A stretch of DNA of 64,000 bases from Paragemmobacter amnigenus (GTDB lineage Bacteria; Pseudomonadota; Alphaproteobacteria; Rhodobacterales; Rhodobacteraceae). The notes under the pieces were generated by a model. It worked only from the letters and a program-made list of their open reading frames with translations, did no database searches and was not told the DNA's origin. The stretch spans positions 1-64,000 of the forward strand of contig NZ_JAAATX020000002.1 of NCBI RefSeq assembly GCF_009908265.2, read 5' to 3'. The translations under genes and the position numbers were made by a program. Positions within the stretch are counted from its first letter, which is position 1. Each line of letters starts with the position of its first letter. This document shows, piece by piece, positions 5,989 through 49,823 of this stretch.

Positions 5989-6380
5989 CGCGCGGATGGC
6001 CGGATGACCGCGGGGGGCGACCTTCGAGGAAAGTCCGGACTCCATGAAGCAAGGGTGCCGGGTAACGCCCGGCGGGGGCAACCCCAGGGAAAGCGCCACA
6101 GAGAAGAGTCTGCCCCGCTTGCGGGGTGATGGTGAAACGGTGGGGTAAGAGCCCACCGCGGACTTGGCAACAAGGACGGCACGGCAAGCCCCACCCGGAG
6201 CAATGCCGAATAGGGGCCTCGCGCGGAAAGGTCTGGCGATCGTCAGAGACCTCCGCAGGGACGCTTCAGCCCAGAGGCCCGGGTTGGCAGCTTGACCGCC
6301 GTGGCAACACGGACGGCAGAGGAATGGTCATCCAAGGGGGCAACCCCGGGACAGAATCCGGCTTACAGGCTATCCGCGCG
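5989..6380 (+). ncRNA. rnpB: RNase P RNA (bacterial type A)
   Basis: Catalytic RNA of RNase P, which trims tRNA 5' leaders. Conserved blocks are in the right order: GAGGAAAGTCCGGACTCCA near 6028, GGTAAGAGCCCACCG near 6144, and ACAGAATCCGGCTTACAGGC near 6350. The ends pair to form P1: CGCGCGGATGG at 5989-5999 with CTATCCGCGCG at 6370-6380. About 392 nucleotides, normal for alphaproteobacteria. No T-rich terminator follows on this strand. Confidence 0.96.
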
Positions 6381-6400
6381 TTCTTTTCGGTAACCGTCGC

Positions 6401-24417: not shown

Positions 24418-24741
24418 ATGATCCTTTACGGCATCCCCACCTGCGACACCTGCAAGAAGGCCATCCGCGCGCTCGAGGGCGCGGGGCATGACGTCACCTT
24501 CCGCGACATCCGCGCCAATCCCCTGTCCGATGCGGAAATAGCGGAAATCGTGACCGAATTCGGCGACCGCGTGATCAACAAGGCGTCGACCACCTATCGC
24601 GGCTTCAACGATTTCCTGAAAGCCTCCGAGCCCGAGGCGCAGATTGCCGCCCAACCCACGGTGATGAAGCGCCCGCTGATCAAGAACGGGTCCGACTGGC
24701 ACCTTGGCTGGGACGACGCGGTTCAGGCCAAGCTGTTGTAG
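24418..24741 (+). CDS. ArsC/Spx/YffB family thioredoxin-fold protein
   Basis: A 107-residue protein of the ArsC-like family: MILYGIPTCDTCKKAIRALE with a CDTC active-site-like motif, and the C-terminal MKRPLIKNGSDWHLGW segment. It fits the YffB/Spx-like branch better than true arsenate reductases, as there is no arsenic operon. GGAAG precedes ATG 24418. Its stop codon lies inside a 12-bp hairpin stem. Substrate unknown. Confidence 0.85.
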   Translation: MILYGIPTCDTCKKAIRALEGAGHDVTFRDIRANPLSDAEIAEIVTEFGDRVINKASTTYRGFNDFLKASEPEAQIAAQPTVMKRPLIKNGSDWHLGWDDAVQAKLL

Positions 24742-24765
24742 GATGGGCATTTTTGCCCATCCTAC
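24738..24765. terminator. Symmetric hairpin between convergent genes
   Basis: GTAGGATGGGCA (24738-24749), loop TTTT, TGCCCATCCTAC (24754-24765). Perfect 12-bp stem that contains the TAG stop of the ArsC-like gene. No T-run follows, so it may act as an mRNA end-stabiliser or a bidirectional terminator. Confidence 0.65.
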
Positions 24766-34329: not shown

Positions 34330-35277
34330 ATGACCGAAGGGCAGGGGCGCGTCACGCTCTGGGGGATCGAGGTGTTTCTGGCCGCCGCCGAGGAAGGCGC
34401 GATTTCCGCCGCCGCGCGCAGGCTGGGGGTCAGCCCTTCGGCGGTCAGCCAGCAGTTGGCCTCGCTCGAATCCGCGCTGGGTACGGTGCTTCTGGACCGT
34501 GGCGCGCGGCCCATGACCATGACCCCCGCCGGAACCATGTTCCGCCGCCACGCGCAAGTCATCCTGAACGCCGAGGCCGAGGCGCGCGCCGAACTGGCCC
34601 TGTCCGACCTGTCGGGTCTGACGACCCTGCGTCTGGGCATGATCGAGGATCTCGATGCCGAGGTGACGCCGCAGCTTCTGGCGGAACTGGCGGGCGGGCT
34701 GAAAGGCTGCCGCTTCCTGCTGGAAACGGGGGCAAGCCACCACCTGCTGGAACAGTTGTCGAACCGCGCGCTGGATATCGTCGTGGCCGCCGATGCCGCG
34801 CTCGACTCGCCCGAAGGCTGGCGCGAGGTGCATCCCATCCTTGCCGAACCCTTCGTCGCCGTGGCCCCGCGCGGGGCAGGGGATGTCACGGCCCTGCCGC
34901 TGATCCAGTACACCACCCGCCACCTGATGGGCCGCCAGATCGCCGCCCATCTGGCACGCCAGAACATCCGCATCGGCACCCGCTTCGAACTGGACAGCTA
35001 CACGCCCATCCTTGCCATGGTCGCCGCCGGTGCGGGCTGGACGATCCTCACCCCCCTCGCGCTGCACCACGCCGCCCGCTTCCGCGACGCGGTCGAGGTG
35101 CGGCCCTTGCCCTTTGATCCCTTTGGCCGGACCCTGTCGCTCCATGCCCGCGCGGGCGTGCTGCGCGACATGCCGGCCGAGGTGGCAGCACGCCTGCGCC
35201 GCCTGCTGCAAGGACAGGTGGTGGACCCCTCCCGCGCCGCGTGGCCGTGGCTGGGCGAGGCGTTGCGGACCCTGTAA
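34330..35277 (+). CDS. LysR family transcriptional regulator
   Basis: A 315-residue regulator. The N-terminal helix-turn-helix is GIEVFLAAAEEGAISAAARR LGVSPSAVSQQLASLESALG, followed by an effector domain (TTLRLGMIEDLDAEVTPQLL). It lies 17 bases after phaR, so it may be co-transcribed with it; a role in PHA or carbon metabolism is only a guess. It ends at the tandem hairpin array at 35282. Confidence 0.88.
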   Translation: MTEGQGRVTLWGIEVFLAAAEEGAISAAARRLGVSPSAVSQQLASLESALGTVLLDRGARPMTMTPAGTMFRRHAQVILNAEAEARAELALSDLSGLTTLRLGMIEDLDAEVTPQLLAELAGGLKGCRFLLETGASHHLLEQLSNRALDIVVAADAALDSPEGWREVHPILAEPFVAVAPRGAGDVTALPLIQYTTRHLMGRQIAAHLARQNIRIGTRFELDSYTPILAMVAAGAGWTILTPLALHHAARFRDAVEVRPLPFDPFGRTLSLHARAGVLRDMPAEVAARLRRLLQGQVVDPSRAAWPWLGEALRTL

Positions 35278-35281
35278 CCGC

Positions 35282-35396
35282 AAGATTTTTCTGGCGAAAA
35301 ATCTTCAACCGATCCTTCTGGCGAAGGATCGCCACCGCCTGCGCCCGATCTTTCGCAAGAAAGATCGTCGCAAGGAAATTCGCCAGAATTTCCTTG
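35282..35396. repeat. Tandem array of four hairpins with CTGGCG-type loops
   Basis: Four perfect hairpins in 115 bases: AAGATTTTT loop CTGGCG (35282-35305), GATCCTT loop CTGGCG (35311-35330), GATCTTT loop CGCAAG (35347-35366), CAAGGAAATT loop CGCCAG (35371-35396). Stems differ; loops repeat, and the last is the reverse complement of the first two. It fills the convergent gap between the LysR and DegT genes, the last stem touching the DegT stop. It could end transcription from both sides. Confidence 0.85.
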
Positions 35397-36584
35397 TTAG
35401 GCCTTCACCTCGCGCGCCGCATCGACCAGCGCGGTGGCGATGTAATCCAGCTCCGCTTCGGTCAGCCGCGCGGGCAGGCGCACATCGCAGGCCCGCATCA
35501 GCATGGCGCGCGTCTTGGGCAGGTCCGGCACCTCCCCCAGAAACTGCCAGTTCCAATAGGCCCGCGCATTGCCCTCGGACAGGCCGAAGACCTGCACCGA
35601 CACGCCGCGCCGTTTCGCGGCCTTCTGGAATTCGCGCGCATGATCGTCGGACCAGTCGCCCGCAAGGTTGAACTGAATCGAATCCGGCGCGCGGCTTTCC
35701 TGCGGCAGGGCAGGGGGGACGGACAGCAGACCGCAGGCATTCAGCCGCTCTGCCACCCAGTCATGGTTCGCCAGACCCTGCGACACCCGCCGCGCCACCT
35801 CGGGCAGTTGCGGGCGGATCACCGCCGCCGACAGGTTCTGCATCCGCAGGTTATAGAGCGGCAGCTTGTTCTGCCAATGCGCGCAGGAATTGGACAGCCC
35901 CGGATGCTTTTTCCAGTTTTCCTCATAGGCGCCCGACATGATGATGGCCCGCGCGGCGATTTCGGGATCATCGGTCACCATGATCCCGCCTTCGCCCGCA
36001 TTCACCAGCTTGTAGGACTGGAAGCTGAAGCAGCCGACCTTGCCGATGGTGCCGATATTCCGCCCGTTCCAGGTGGTGCCCAGCGAATGGGCCGCATCCT
36101 CGATCACCGGAATCCCGCGCGCCTGACACAGCGCCATGATCGCATCCATGTCCGAGGTATGGCCGCGCATGTGGCTGATCATCACCGCCGCCGCATCGTC
36201 CAGCTTCGCCTCGAAATCGGCCATGTCAACGCGGTAATTCCCGCCCACTTCCACCAGAACCGGCTCACAGTCGGCATGGACGATGGACGACGGCACGGCG
36301 GCAAAGGTGAAGGCGGGGATCAGCACCTTCGCGCCCCGCGGCAGGTCCAGCGCCTTCAGTGACAGGAACAGCGCCGCCGAACAGGACGACACCGCCAGCG
36401 CATAGCGCGACCCCAGCAGGGCCGCGAATTCCGCCTCCAGCAGGGCCACGGGCGCGTTCTCGGGCGCGGTATAGCGGAACAGGTCGCCCGAACTCAGCAG
36501 CCTGTCGATCTCGGCCCGCGCGGCCTCGGGGATCGGTTCGGCATCATAGACATTGGGGGCGAGCGTCTGTCCGTCCGGAGCCAT
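35397..36584 (-). CDS. DegT/DnrJ/EryC1/StrS family aminotransferase
   Basis: A 395-residue PLP-dependent aminotransferase. It has the substrate/PLP pattern SSCSAALFLSLKAL, VIEDAAHSLGTTWNG, and the PLP lysine in CFSFQSYKLVNAGEGG. The family usually aminates keto-sugars, but here it ends a block of amine-metabolism genes. ATG 36584 follows AAGGTGCAGGG; the in-frame upstream extension to 36989 overlaps the neighbouring gene and is rejected. A 128-base gap separates it from the oxidoreductase gene, so it may have its own promoter. Substrate unknown. Confidence 0.85.
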   Translation of the reverse strand: MAPDGQTLAPNVYDAEPIPEAARAEIDRLLSSGDLFRYTAPENAPVALLEAEFAALLGSRYALAVSSCSAALFLSLKALDLPRGAKVLIPAFTFAAVPSSIVHADCEPVLVEVGGNYRVDMADFEAKLDDAAAVMISHMRGHTSDMDAIMALCQARGIPVIEDAAHSLGTTWNGRNIGTIGKVGCFSFQSYKLVNAGEGGIMVTDDPEIAARAIIMSGAYEENWKKHPGLSNSCAHWQNKLPLYNLRMQNLSAAVIRPQLPEVARRVSQGLANHDWVAERLNACGLLSVPPALPQESRAPDSIQFNLAGDWSDDHAREFQKAAKRRGVSVQVFGLSEGNARAYWNWQFLGEVPDLPKTRAMLMRACDVRLPARLTEAELDYIATALVDAAREVKA

Positions 36585-36712: not shown

Positions 36713-38014
36713 CTACAGCCCCAACCTGTCGCGCATGGAATACCACGTCATCGCAAGGACTAGCAGCGGCCAGCGCAGCGCCACCCCGCCGGGAAAGCGC
36801 GGCGTGGGCAGGCGCGCCATCAGGTCGAAGCGTTCCGCCTGACCCGCCACCGCCTCGGCCAGTATCCGCCCCGCGAGCGTTGCCAGCGCGACGCCATGGC
36901 CGGAATAGCCCGAGGCCGACAGGACATTCGGCGCCACCCGCAGGAAGCAGGGGTTGCGCGTCATGGTGATCGCCAGCGTGCCCCCCCATGCGTGGTCGAT
37001 CCTCACGTCCCGCAGGGCGGGGTAGATCTCCAGCATAGGTTTGCGGACGGTCCTGATGATGTCGGGAAAGCGGTAGCCATAGCTTTCCCCGCCACCGAAA
37101 AGCAGGCGGTTATCCTCGGACAGCCGCCAGTAGTTCACGACGAATCTTGTATCCGCCACCGCGACGGGTTCGGACAGAACCTCGCGCGCGCGGTCGCCCA
37201 GCGGTTCGGTCGCCACGATGAAGTTGTTGATCGGCATGACGCGCGCCGCCACCTGCGGTTCCAGCCCGCCCATATAGCCGTTGCAGGCAAGGATCAGGTG
37301 GTCGCAGGTGACGCGCCCCCCCGCCGTTTCCACCACCGGCTGCGCGCCATGGGTGATCTTCGTGACCTCTGACCGTTCCTGGATCACCGCCCCCGCCGCC
37401 AGCGCCGCCCGCGCCAGCCCGATGGCATAGTTCAGCGGATGCACATGCCCCGCGCCGCGGTCGATCTCGCCGCCCGCAAAGACGCCGGACGGGATCAGCC
37501 GCTCGATTTCCTCTTTCGACAGCGGCTCCACCTGATCGTAGCCGTAATCGCGGCGCAGCTTCTCGGCATAGGCATGGGCGTCCCGCACCTCGCTGGCCTG
37601 CCAGCAGGCGTGCGCAATGCCCGGATGGAACCGCACCGGCATGTCATGCGCCGCGATCAGCCCGCGCACCATGTCCTTCGCCTCTTGCGCGAAGTCCCAC
37701 AGCTTGCGCGCATCGTCCAGACCCACCGCCGCCTCCAGCGCGTCCTGATCCAGCCGCTGCCCGCTGCCCACCTGCCCGCCATTGCGCCCCGATGCGCCAA
37801 AGCCCACGCGATGCGCCTCGAGCACGATAACCGAAAGCCCCCGCTCCGCCAGATGCAGCGCGGCGGAAAGCCCCGTATAGCCGCCCCCCACGATGCAGAC
37901 ATCCGCCCGCACCGCCCCCGCAAGGGCGGGCTGCGGCGGGAAGTCGGCGCGTGTGGCGGCGTACCAGGACGGGGGATATTCCCCCGCCCTGTCATTCACA
38001 TGCAGCAGGTTCAT
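36713..38014 (-). CDS. FAD-dependent amine oxidoreductase (PuuB-like)
   Basis: A 433-residue DAO-family flavoprotein. It has the FAD-binding motif VCIVGGGYTGLSAALHLAER (about 39-58), GFGASGRNGGQVGSGQ, and a C-terminal YSGHGVALATLAGRILAEAV typical of gamma-glutamylputrescine oxidase and related amine oxidases. Next to glutamine synthetase-like genes, oxidation of a gamma-glutamyl amine is likely. It starts 3 bases after the stop of the ligase gene, so it is co-transcribed. Substrate not proven. Confidence 0.88.
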   Translation of the reverse strand: MNLLHVNDRAGEYPPSWYAATRADFPPQPALAGAVRADVCIVGGGYTGLSAALHLAERGLSVIVLEAHRVGFGASGRNGGQVGSGQRLDQDALEAAVGLDDARKLWDFAQEAKDMVRGLIAAHDMPVRFHPGIAHACWQASEVRDAHAYAEKLRRDYGYDQVEPLSKEEIERLIPSGVFAGGEIDRGAGHVHPLNYAIGLARAALAAGAVIQERSEVTKITHGAQPVVETAGGRVTCDHLILACNGYMGGLEPQVAARVMPINNFIVATEPLGDRAREVLSEPVAVADTRFVVNYWRLSEDNRLLFGGGESYGYRFPDIIRTVRKPMLEIYPALRDVRIDHAWGGTLAITMTRNPCFLRVAPNVLSASGYSGHGVALATLAGRILAEAVAGQAERFDLMARLPTPRFPGGVALRWPLLVLAMTWYSMRDRLGL

Positions 38015-40156: not shown

Positions 40157-40180
40157 CCGAATTTTCTGGCGAAAATTCGG
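40157..40180. repeat. Single hairpin with CTGGCG loop
   Basis: CCGAATTTT (40157-40165), loop CTGGCG, AAAATTCGG (40172-40180). Same loop as in the array at 35282. It lies between the amidotransferase start and the ligase stop. Confidence 0.8.
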
Positions 40181-47348: not shown

Positions 47349-48011
47349 ATGCTGGAACTCTTCACCGCCGAAGGGCTGGGTGCCCTTGCTCAGGTGATTG
47401 CGATCGACCTCGTCCTTGCGGGCGACAATGCGGTCGTGATCGGCCTCGCCGCCGCCGGCCTGCCGCGCGAGCTTCGCACAAAGGCGATCCTTGTCGGCAT
47501 CCTTGCCGCCACCCTGCTGCGGATATTCTTCGCGCTGATCACCACACAGCTGATGGCGGTCACCGGACTTGTCCTCGCGGGGGGCGTTCTGCTGCTCTGG
47601 GTCTGCTGGAAGATGTGGCGCGAACTGCGCGTCGGGCACGAGGCCGACGAACAAACCGCGCAAGAGGCCCTTGCCGATGCCGACCTGAACCGCGACGGAA
47701 CCATCGCCCCCGCCCCGCGCAAGACCTTCCGTCAGGCCGCCATCCAGATCGTGGTGGCCGATGTGTCGATGAGCCTCGACAATGTCCTCGCCGTGGCCGG
47801 TGCCGCGCGGGAACATCCGTCCGTGCTGATCATCGGCCTTGCCCTGTCCATCGCGCTGATGGGCCTTGCCGCCAGTTTCATCGCCCGCCTTCTGGGCCGG
47901 TACCGCTGGATCGCCTATGTCGGACTGGCGATCATCCTCTATGTCGCGCTCAAGATGATCTGGGAGGGCTGGCACGAGGTCGGGCCCGCGATGGCCCACA
48001 TGATGGGGTGA
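47349..48011 (+). CDS. TerC family integral membrane protein
   Basis: A 220-residue membrane protein of the TerC (YjbE/Alx) family, implicated in metal (manganese) export or metallation of secreted proteins. The ligand motifs VIAIDLVLAGDNAVVIGLAA and VVADVSMSLDNVLAVAG carry the conserved Asp/Asn residues. About seven helices. A hydrophilic loop at residues 110-119 reads DADLNRDGTI, an EF-hand-like calcium or metal loop. Start ATG 47349. A structured leader lies upstream. Ends before the hairpin array at 48068. Confidence 0.9.
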   Translation: MLELFTAEGLGALAQVIAIDLVLAGDNAVVIGLAAAGLPRELRTKAILVGILAATLLRIFFALITTQLMAVTGLVLAGGVLLLWVCWKMWRELRVGHEADEQTAQEALADADLNRDGTIAPAPRKTFRQAAIQIVVADVSMSLDNVLAVAGAAREHPSVLIIGLALSIALMGLAASFIARLLGRYRWIAYVGLAIILYVALKMIWEGWHEVGPAMAHMMG

Positions 48012-48067
48012 CCCCGTCCGCCCTGCCGCGCGCCGATGGGACGTTGAAGAACGCATGGTTGCAACAG

Positions 48068-48178
48068 GCGATTTCTGACGCAGAAATCGCCACGGAATTT
48101 GACACAAATTCCGGTCACCCTCGGCTGCCGACCGATTTCTGCGTCAGAAATCGGCGCGAAATCTGCGTCAGATTTCGC
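48068..48178. repeat. Tandem array of four hairpins with CTG-ACG-CAG-type loops
   Basis: Four hairpins: GCGATTTCTG loop ACG (48068-48090), CGGAATTT loop GACAC (48093-48113), CCGATTTCTG loop CGT (48132-48154), GCGAAATCTG loop CGT (48156-48178). The ACG and CGT loops are reverse complements. The array fills the 168-base convergent gap between the TerC and pyrG genes, parallel to the array at 35282. Confidence 0.85.
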
Positions 48179-48179
48179 C

Positions 48180-49823
48180 CTATACCAACCGGCTCACATC
48201 CACCGCCGCCCGCACGAAATCGGCAAACAGCGGATGGGGGGCAAAGGGCTTCGACTTCAGCTCGGGGTGGAACTGCACGCCGATGAACCACGGATGGTCC
48301 TTGACCTCCACGATCTCGGGCAACCGCCCGTCGGGCGACATGCCCGAAAAGATCAGCCCGCATTTCTCCAGCTTGTCGCGGTACTGGATGTCGACCTCGT
48401 AGCGGTGGCGGTGCCGCTCCTCGATCACCGGCGCGCCATAGACGCCTGCCACACGCGACCCGTCCTTCAGATGCGCGGTATAGGCCCCCAGACGCATCGT
48501 GCCGCCCTTGTCATCGGTCAGCTTGCGCGCCACGACATGGTTGCCCTGCACCCATTCCTTCAGGTGATAGACGACCGGCGTGAACCGCTTTTCGCCCGCC
48601 TCGTGGTCGAATTCCTCGGACCCTGCGTTCTTCACACCGGCAAGGTTCCGCGCCGCCTCGATCACCGCCATCTGCATGCCAAGGCAGATGCCCAGATAGG
48701 GAATCTTCTTCTCGCGCGCGAATTGCGCGGCCTTGATCTTGCCTTCCGTCCCCCGTTCGCCGAAGCCGCCGGGCACGAGGATGGCGTGGAAATTCTCCAG
48801 CCACGGCGCCGGATCCTCGCGCTCGAAGATCTCGGCATCGATCCATTCGGCGCGCACCTTCGTCCGGTTCGCCATGCCGCCATGGGTCAGCGCCTCGGCG
48901 ATCGACTTATAGGCATCCTCCAGCTGCGTGTACTTGCCCACGATGGCCACCCGCACCTCGCCCTCGGCATGGGTCAGGCGGTCCATCACATCTTCCCAGC
49001 GCGCAAGGTTGGGCTTGGGCGCGGGCGTGATGCCAAAGGCATCCAGCACCGCCTGATCCAGCCCCGCGCGGTGATAGGCAAGCGGCGCCTCGTAGATGGT
49101 TTTCAGGTCATAGGCCGGAATGACCGCATCCTTCCGCACGTTGCAGAACAGCGCGATCTTCTCGCGCTCGCGGTCGGGGATCGGATGTTCGGACCGGCAG
49201 ACCAGAACGTCGGGCGCCAGACCGATCGATTGCAGCTCCTTCACCGAATGCTGCGTGGGCTTCGTCTTCAACTCCCCGCTCGCCGCCAGATAGGGCAGCA
49301 GCGTCAGGTGCATCAGGATCGACTGGCCGCGCGGGCGTTCGTGGATGAACTGGCGGATCGCCTCGAAGAAGGGCAGCCCCTCGATGTCGCCCACCGTGCC
49401 GCCGATCTCGCACAGCATGAAATCGACCTCGTCATCCCCGATCCGCAGGAAATTCTTGATCTCGTTGGTGACGTGCGGGATCACCTGGATCGTCTTGCCA
49501 AGGTAATCCCCCCGCCGCTCCTTCTCCAGCACGTTGGAATAGATCCGGCCCGACGAGATGGAATCCGTCTGCCGCGCCGAAACGCCGGTAAAGCGTTCGT
49601 AATGGCCAAGGTCCAGATCGGTTTCCGCCCCGTCATCGGTGACGAAGACCTCGCCATGCTCGAACGGCGACATCGTGCCGGGATCGACGTTCAGATAGGG
49701 GTCCAGCTTCCGCAGCCGCACCGTATAGCCCCGCGCCTGCAACAGCGCCCCCAGCGCGGCCGAGGCCAACCCCTTGCCAAGGGACGAGACCACGCCGCCA
49801 GTGATGAAGATATAGCGTGCCAA
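48180..49823 (-). CDS. pyrG: CTP synthase
   Basis: Makes CTP from UTP with glutamine. The 547-residue protein has the synthetase domain ([40 protein letters not shown]) and the class I amidotransferase domain with [10 protein letters not shown] (nucleophile Cys) and VQFHPE. The start codon is TTG at 49823, with GGGAG 7 bases upstream; no nearby in-frame ATG or GTG is better. It follows secG, a common alphaproteobacterial order. Confidence 0.98.

Follow-up and report, generated by a model that had tools for sequence, protein, structure and literature searches.

REP/BIME elements are extragenic palindromes that occur in inverted pairs and are associated with a RAYT transposase, and transcript ends at sites lacking a T-tract in GC-rich alphaproteobacteria are, to our knowledge, poorly described. 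Among the systems closest to the locus reported here, hairpin-cluster terminators comprise at least two hairpins that are separated by less than 15 bases and lie close after a stop codon, and they are reported not to need poly A/U trails (Gupta and Pal 2021, PMC8355165). Stem-loops are more frequent in convergent than in divergent gaps and favour the 50 bp that follow a stop codon, and members of an AT-rich class in low-GC firmicutes mostly carry four Ts at their 3' border (Petrillo et al. 2006, PMC1590033). ANTAR target RNAs consist of two tandem hairpins with conserved loops that are held at a limited distance and read by a dimeric protein; these antiterminators occur in 5' leaders and have short stems and hexaloops with A1 and G4 (PMC3369931).

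The gap between two convergent genes in the window (the whole 64,000-nucleotide stretch of Paragemmobacter amnigenus DNA that was analysed) is filled by four hairpins at 35282-35396:

34330..35277, + strand: LysR-type regulator gene (HTH_1, LysR_substrate), which stops 4 nt before hairpin 1
35282..35305, + strand: hairpin 1 (outer, sense for the LysR gene), AAGATTTTTC-TGGC-GAAAAATCTT, 10 bp stem
35310..35331, + strand: hairpin 2 (inner, sense for the LysR gene), CGATCCTTC-TGGC-GAAGGATCG, 9 bp stem
35346..35367, - strand: hairpin 3 (inner, sense for the DegT gene), 9 bp stem, loop GCAA on the + strand and TTGC on the - strand
35371..35396, - strand: hairpin 4 (outer, sense for the DegT gene), 11 bp stem, loop GCCA on the + strand and TGGC on the - strand
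35397..36584, - strand: DegT/DnrJ/EryC1/StrS aminotransferase family gene, whose stop codon is abutted by hairpin 4

The first-pass annotation had described four perfect hairpins in 115 bases, and they are present with stems of 9-11 bp and loops TGGC, TGGC, GCAA and GCCA. Its six-base loops CTGGCG and CGCCAG contain these core loops with the closing C-G pair counted in, and the true loops are 4 nt. The + strand of 35275-35405 folds at -55 kcal/mol (z = -6.8), and the - strand of the array has z = -5.2 with a lowest-energy fold in which the two middle hairpins are merged into a different structure; for each strand, none of 200 shuffles is equally stable. The hairpins have a GC content of 29-59%, compared with 65.8% for the window, so the GC-rich stem of a canonical intrinsic terminator is not found here. 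Under covariance model R1, hairpins 1 and 2 score as a twin element at 70.0 bits (E = 1.7e-16) and hairpins 3 and 4 at 66.4 bits (E = 1.8e-15), scores that include self-recognition because both twins belong to the 41 training sequences of R1. The only Rfam match at gathering score in the whole window is a bacterial class A RNase P RNA (5992-6381, 267.8 bits). The array has no match at this score, and a known Rfam RNA was rejected; below it, two miRNA models are hit (E = 0.026 and 0.3).

The loop search proposed in the first-pass annotation shows that this loop recurs: the genome (4.14 Mb) contains 99 copies of TTCTGGCGAA, versus 5 of the reversed control. These copies group into 55 clusters: 46 clusters with 90 sites are intergenic, and the other 9, with one site each, fall within called genes, where each of pairs 4-8 is Watson-Crick in only 2-3 of the 9. 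We call this system A; its unit is a pair of hairpins, or twin. When the loop is relaxed to T, 0-2 bases and GC, 60 twin elements and 30 single hairpins are counted, both in genome stretches mostly picked around TTCTGGCGAA sites. Either twin position can carry TGGC, TGC, TCGC or TTGC. The loop-to-loop distance (arm + gap + arm) is 24 in 47 twins and 23 in the other 13, with a standard deviation of 0.41 versus the 1.76 expected if the parts varied independently; outer stem and gap lengths differ among twins while this distance is maintained. Contrary to the earlier claim that the stems are unrelated in sequence, their vocabulary is narrow. Outer stems resemble [CG]AAGAWTTTTC and inner stems resemble CGATCCTTC, with paired changes elsewhere, and the three apical pairs TTC/GAA are identical in 60/60 twins, although the twin filter itself required only the last two of them. 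A simple chance origin was rejected: tight arrays (at least two hairpins with stem >=8, loop 3-5, gap <=12 and GC <=66%) number 22 in a 380-kb portion of this genome and 4 in the window, and none was obtained from any of ten first-order Markov sequences modelled on those 380 kb or from any of ten random sequences of equal length at 50% GC.

System A elements are concentrated at gene ends. The 46 intergenic clusters lie in 27 convergent, 18 tandem and 1 divergent gaps, and across stretches of this genome and genomes G130 and G120, arrays occupy 16/83 convergent versus 2/119 divergent gaps (p = 1.7e-5), which bears out the enrichment at convergent gene ends that had been predicted. Genes were called with a home-made caller that was trained on the genes recognised in the window and applied to the relatives too. 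In the same three genomes, the median distance from the stop codon is 5 nt to an array edge (n = 42) and 22 nt to a GC-rich hairpin (n = 120). Convergent gaps of at least 25 bp in the 380 kb (39 gaps) contain system A in 6 cases, a second system (B, below) in 3, other hairpins in 23 and none of these in 7. Exclusion of arrays by GC-rich hairpins in convergent gaps is not significant (4/16 vs 31/67, p = 0.16).

The array had also been suspected of mirror symmetry with two hairpins for each strand, and the same arrangement recurs across the genome. Among 41 arrays with at least two system A hairpins, F hairpins precede R in 38, R hairpins stand alone in 3, and the opposite order never occurs. 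Complete FFRR tetrads, which are two twins placed inverted and head to head, account for 22 of the 41, with 16 in convergent gaps, 5 in tandem gaps and 1 inside a called gene. On both strands, transcripts consequently meet sense-type loops first. The second half of each of the five tandem-gap tetrads follows no called gene on its strand. One single hairpin in the window violates the orientation rule, its loop being GCCA on the sense strand of its genes:

40157..40180, + strand: single TGGC-loop hairpin between two - strand genes

A T-tract (>=4 T in 8 nt) follows the inner or outer hairpin in none of the 60 twins, which again departs from a canonical intrinsic terminator. The AT-rich stems are weak; one test hairpin has a stability of about -10 kcal/mol.

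Like REP/BIME elements, the arrays are extragenic and inverted palindromes, and they differ in having neither a fixed stem sequence nor a Y1 transposase over cut-off in the genus genomes. With gaps of 2-8 nt between the hairpins of all 60 twins, and with 34 twins starting no more than 6 nt past the upstream same-strand stop codon (a few overlap it), they fit the spacing and placement of hairpin-cluster terminators. The accessible portion of the description of that group mentions neither a common loop nor a set distance between loops, and neither loops that differ by lineage nor tetrads of inverted twins (PMC8355165), and judged from sequence features the arrays are best read as a new variant of this group. 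Stem-loops of the kind surveyed by Petrillo et al. share the preference for convergent gaps and stop codons, but as far as the accessible text goes they include a T-bordered AT-rich class and have no loop or spacing rule (PMC1590033). Compared with ANTAR RNAs as portrayed in the available part of PMC3369931, the arrays have loops of 3-4 nt, stems mostly of 8-13 bp and a location at gene ends; an ANTAR target was rejected since the loops are TGGC, TGC, TTGC, TCGC and ACG variants rather than A1/G4 hexaloops. Intrastrand-triplex repeats (PMC4666352, accessible portion) were set aside on arm composition alone, because the array arms mix purine and pyrimidine runs. A search of open-access literature, which covers no preprints and few subscription papers, returned no title or opening of an abstract that describes the arrays and no paper for CUGGCG, and a search of PMC11109978 for Rhodobacter and for tandem hairpins gave no match.

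The covariance analysis suggested at the outset finds paired changes. In alignment A2 of 41 system A copies, 97.6% of cells are paired and 13 of 20 pairs have double changes, compared with 80.6% of cells and 9.2 pairs in shuffled versions, and the system B alignment has 99.5% of cells paired with double changes in 12 of 19 pairs, although part of the pairing in both systems is by construction because their elements were selected as hairpins. With double-sided changes at this frequency, the conserved palindrome sequence of a REP element is not found. The 90 intergenic TTCTGGCGAA sites, which were selected by the loop and three pairs alone, provide a fairer test; of the 450 pairs at positions 4-8, 444 are Watson-Crick, 1 is G-U and 5 are mismatched. 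G-U pairs would be unusable if the hairpin is needed on both strands. Model R1 was built from 41 of the 60 twins and is limited to those with an outer tetraloop, because the MAFFT alignment A1 misplaced outer triloops. Its genome scan, in which 150 of 2848 candidates were scored, gives at least 121 matches at E <=0.1, with some places counted once per strand, and at least 76 at E <=1.3e-7. No special loop stability was seen, as F, R, GTAC and control tetraloops fall within 1.3 kcal/mol of each other on one RNA stem. Loops of the GNA/GNNA type are stable in DNA, and the R strands of arrays carry what we take to be loops of this type.

A second system occurs in the window after pyrG, again in a convergent gap:

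47349-48011, + strand: TerC-family gene, which flanks the system B array
48067..48178, no strand assigned: system B array of four hairpins, with + strand loops ACG, ACA, CGT and CGT
48180-49823, - strand: CTP synthase gene pyrG, which flanks the system B array

The B twins collected from this genome and relatives (gaps up to 4, stems >=8) have an arm + gap + arm sum of 21 in 27/27 cases, and 20 of them were used to build model R2 after 7 with a four-base loop had been excluded. Downstream of pyrG in 17 genus genomes there is a B twin in 11, a different single hairpin in 5 and neither in 1; the strict B pattern finds 10 of these and misses a slightly altered copy in G129. The 17 are drawn from 19 genomes, G126 and G133 being left out for partial pyrG matches, and the copy of the genome under study (G000) was read from the window. 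Among the 10 strict copies hairpin 1 is nearly constant; double changes affect two pairs of hairpin 2, which also contains a G-U pair in G135. Two Paracoccus stretches of 41.6 kb each around pyrG contain no array.

The LysR/DegT gap was compared in 18 genomes, leaving out a second LysR copy of G129. It holds A-like arrays in 8 of them and a B-like twin in one more; two have GC-rich hairpins, and the remaining 7 have no array. Orthologous ends, both here and after pyrG, are consequently equipped with different devices, and arrays seem able to replace single GC-rich hairpins at some gene ends. In G125, G121 and G127 the gap contains tetrads with identical stems in hairpins 1, 2 and 4, and the loops vary: they read, in that order of genomes, GTAC, ATCC and ATCC in hairpin 1, GAC, GCA and TCC in hairpin 2, and AGT, GACT and GGAT in hairpin 4. 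Hairpin 3 of G121 has a paired T-A to C-G change. The proposal that loops are kept while stems vary therefore describes this genome and fails as a general rule, since the reverse holds at the LysR/DegT gap of these three relatives.

Neighbouring hairpins (gap <=9) in other genera carry the same or reverse-complementary loops in 57/94 pairs, versus a shuffled mean of 7.2, at loci found with R1 and R2, which are biased to some loops. Taking one pair per genome leaves 24/39 matches against a mean of 2.75, a value reached in 0 of 5000 shuffles, and among 22 genomes with other loops 14 pairs match and 8 do not. The loop string of the whole array is an exact reverse complement of itself in merely 30 of 77 arrays from other genera. 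In G149, GTAC occupies 20/20 twin hairpins at 10 loci with a distance of 22 in 10/10, and a single TCAG hairpin appears at one site under looser settings. G303 has mostly CTAG at 6 loci, which comprise one twin and five triads. GCGC loops occur in 2/2 arrays of G018, 4/5 of G301 (partly with GTGC) and 1/3 of G264, and one G018 array combines a GCGC twin with an ATAT twin. Complementary loop pairs are GCC/GGC and GAC/GTC at 2/4 loci of G363, and GCC with GGC and TGC with GCA in G233.

These loops could tentatively be viewed as a lineage-specific code, in which paired hairpins at a fixed distance would be read on both strands by a putative dimeric factor that defines mRNA 3' ends, an idea that we regard as doubtful. 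The lineage loops would be TGGC/TGC, ACG, GTAC, CTAG, GCGC, GCC with GGC, and others. One twin would suffice for self-complementary loops, and other loops would call for either a complementary pair or two twins in inverted orientation. This one-twin idea arose after three GTAC loci had been seen, and the G149 loci that were fetched afterwards agree with it; the G303 triads and the TGC-TGC twins of G365 and of one G402 locus fit poorly.

Arrays appear so far to be confined to one bacterial family, as judged by genome scans whose counts are lower bounds wherever more than 40 genomes were scanned, since stricter filters were used there. R1 matches 80/394 sampled family genomes at E <=1e-4 and all 19 genus genomes at E 0.001 (2 to 103 matches apiece), and R2 matches 22/388 sampled family genomes. 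Of 289 genomes sampled from the class, 2 are matched by R1 and 1 by R2, every one in the same family. G128, a 1.5-Mb genome of the genus, has just 2 R1 matches, and its pyrG is followed by a single 17-bp hairpin and no B array. Same-strand twin TTCTGGCGAA occurs in 50 stretches of other organisms' contigs, a set that may exclude records near this genome, and F then R on both strands is found only in two stretches of Rhodobacteraceae bacterium Prado181. The remainder come mainly from Granulicella and Planctomycetes and mostly have 3-5 bp stems. In these contigs TTCTGGCGAA lies at similar spacing in one-strand tandem repeats, mostly without matching stems; certain Planctomycetes repeats have stems of 7-8 bp yet are confined to a single strand. 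Three viral contigs with twin TTCTGGCGAA have 3-bp stems. Plasmids outside the family yielded nothing beyond partial matches of 22-35 bases when searched with the arrays.

We favour, with a probability of roughly 0.6, the reading that the array is a bidirectional gene-end module, a function predicted from sequence patterns. Arrays would probably mark or protect message ends on both strands, a role supported by stop-codon proximity, the convergent excess, the F-before-R order, the paired changes and the differing devices at orthologous ends. Once the ribosome has cleared the stop codon, the nascent or released RNA could fold into the first twin, and the paired hairpins might destabilise the elongation complex, block 3'-to-5' exonucleases after Rho-dependent release, or both. 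Each facing gene would gain a defined 3' end, and overlapping antisense RNA would be limited. The common loop and fixed spacing suggest a loop-reading factor, possibly a dimeric one, and it is a guess that such a factor reads two loops; a protein with this role would, if there is one, be a new gene-end factor. The tandem-gene tetrads, the absence of an array in 7/18 relatives, the non-significant exclusion between arrays and GC-rich hairpins, and the modest share of exactly self-complementary loop strings in other genera (30/77) count against the gene-end module, as do the missing T-tract and the weak AT-rich stems. These last two features would suit a sub-case whose odds overlap with those of the module, namely that Rho stops transcription elsewhere and the hairpins merely block exonucleases. 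Protection alone is rather improbable, as it leaves the fixed loop-to-loop distance and the matched loops of neighbours unexplained.

G-U pairs are nearly absent from the 90 intergenic sites (1/450), whereas they make up 23/317 interior pairs of GC-rich T-tailed hairpins in this genome and two relatives, which were chosen by other criteria and are a rough control. This difference favours an element that acts in DNA, such as a cruciform, a single-strand hairpin or a site for a palindrome-binding or nucleoid protein, which might for example form a boundary that absorbs supercoiling between facing genes. The linear loop-to-loop distance that is fixed regardless of stem lengths and the complete tetrads between tandem genes also agree with this alternative. 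It is nonetheless unlikely, because the strict F-before-R order and the short distance to stop codons point to transcription, and a dimer bound to double-stranded DNA would arguably have no need of matched double changes. Transposase-driven spread of a REP-like family of miniature mobile elements would fit intergenic, inverted arrays whose presence differs among close relatives; the nearest relative by LysR and DegT proteins (G123, 93% and 92% identity) has the two stop codons only 4 nt apart. Such mobility is very improbable given that stems vary between copies with paired changes, that the pyrG array is in place in 11/17 relatives, and that Y1_Tnp (PF01797), the RAYT-type family and the sole transposase family searched, is over cut-off in 0/19 genus genomes (with one weak sub-cut-off match in G125) and in 5/14 control genomes; REP/RAYT mobility was rejected on this last count. 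In contrast to these alternatives, the gene-end module remains our preferred reading, and the arrays are countable, modelled (R1 and R2) and precise in geometry, with loops that change by lineage.

Other hairpins were also noted. A GC-rich hairpin pair recurs on contig C1 of this genome at 36963-37017, 130315-130368 and 147298-147353, with one hairpin of the form gcgcac...gtgcgc or similar and the other ..gtggc/gccac.., and this pair is possibly a third array type. Hairpins with TCGA loops, at some sites in adjacent pairs, occur on contig C1 at 6240, 175485 and 364463 and also in G130, and they possibly represent a further self-complementary loop type. Outside these array types, a 12-bp perfect hairpin, GTAGGATGGGCA-TTTT-TGCCCATCCTAC, is located at 24738-24765 of the window.
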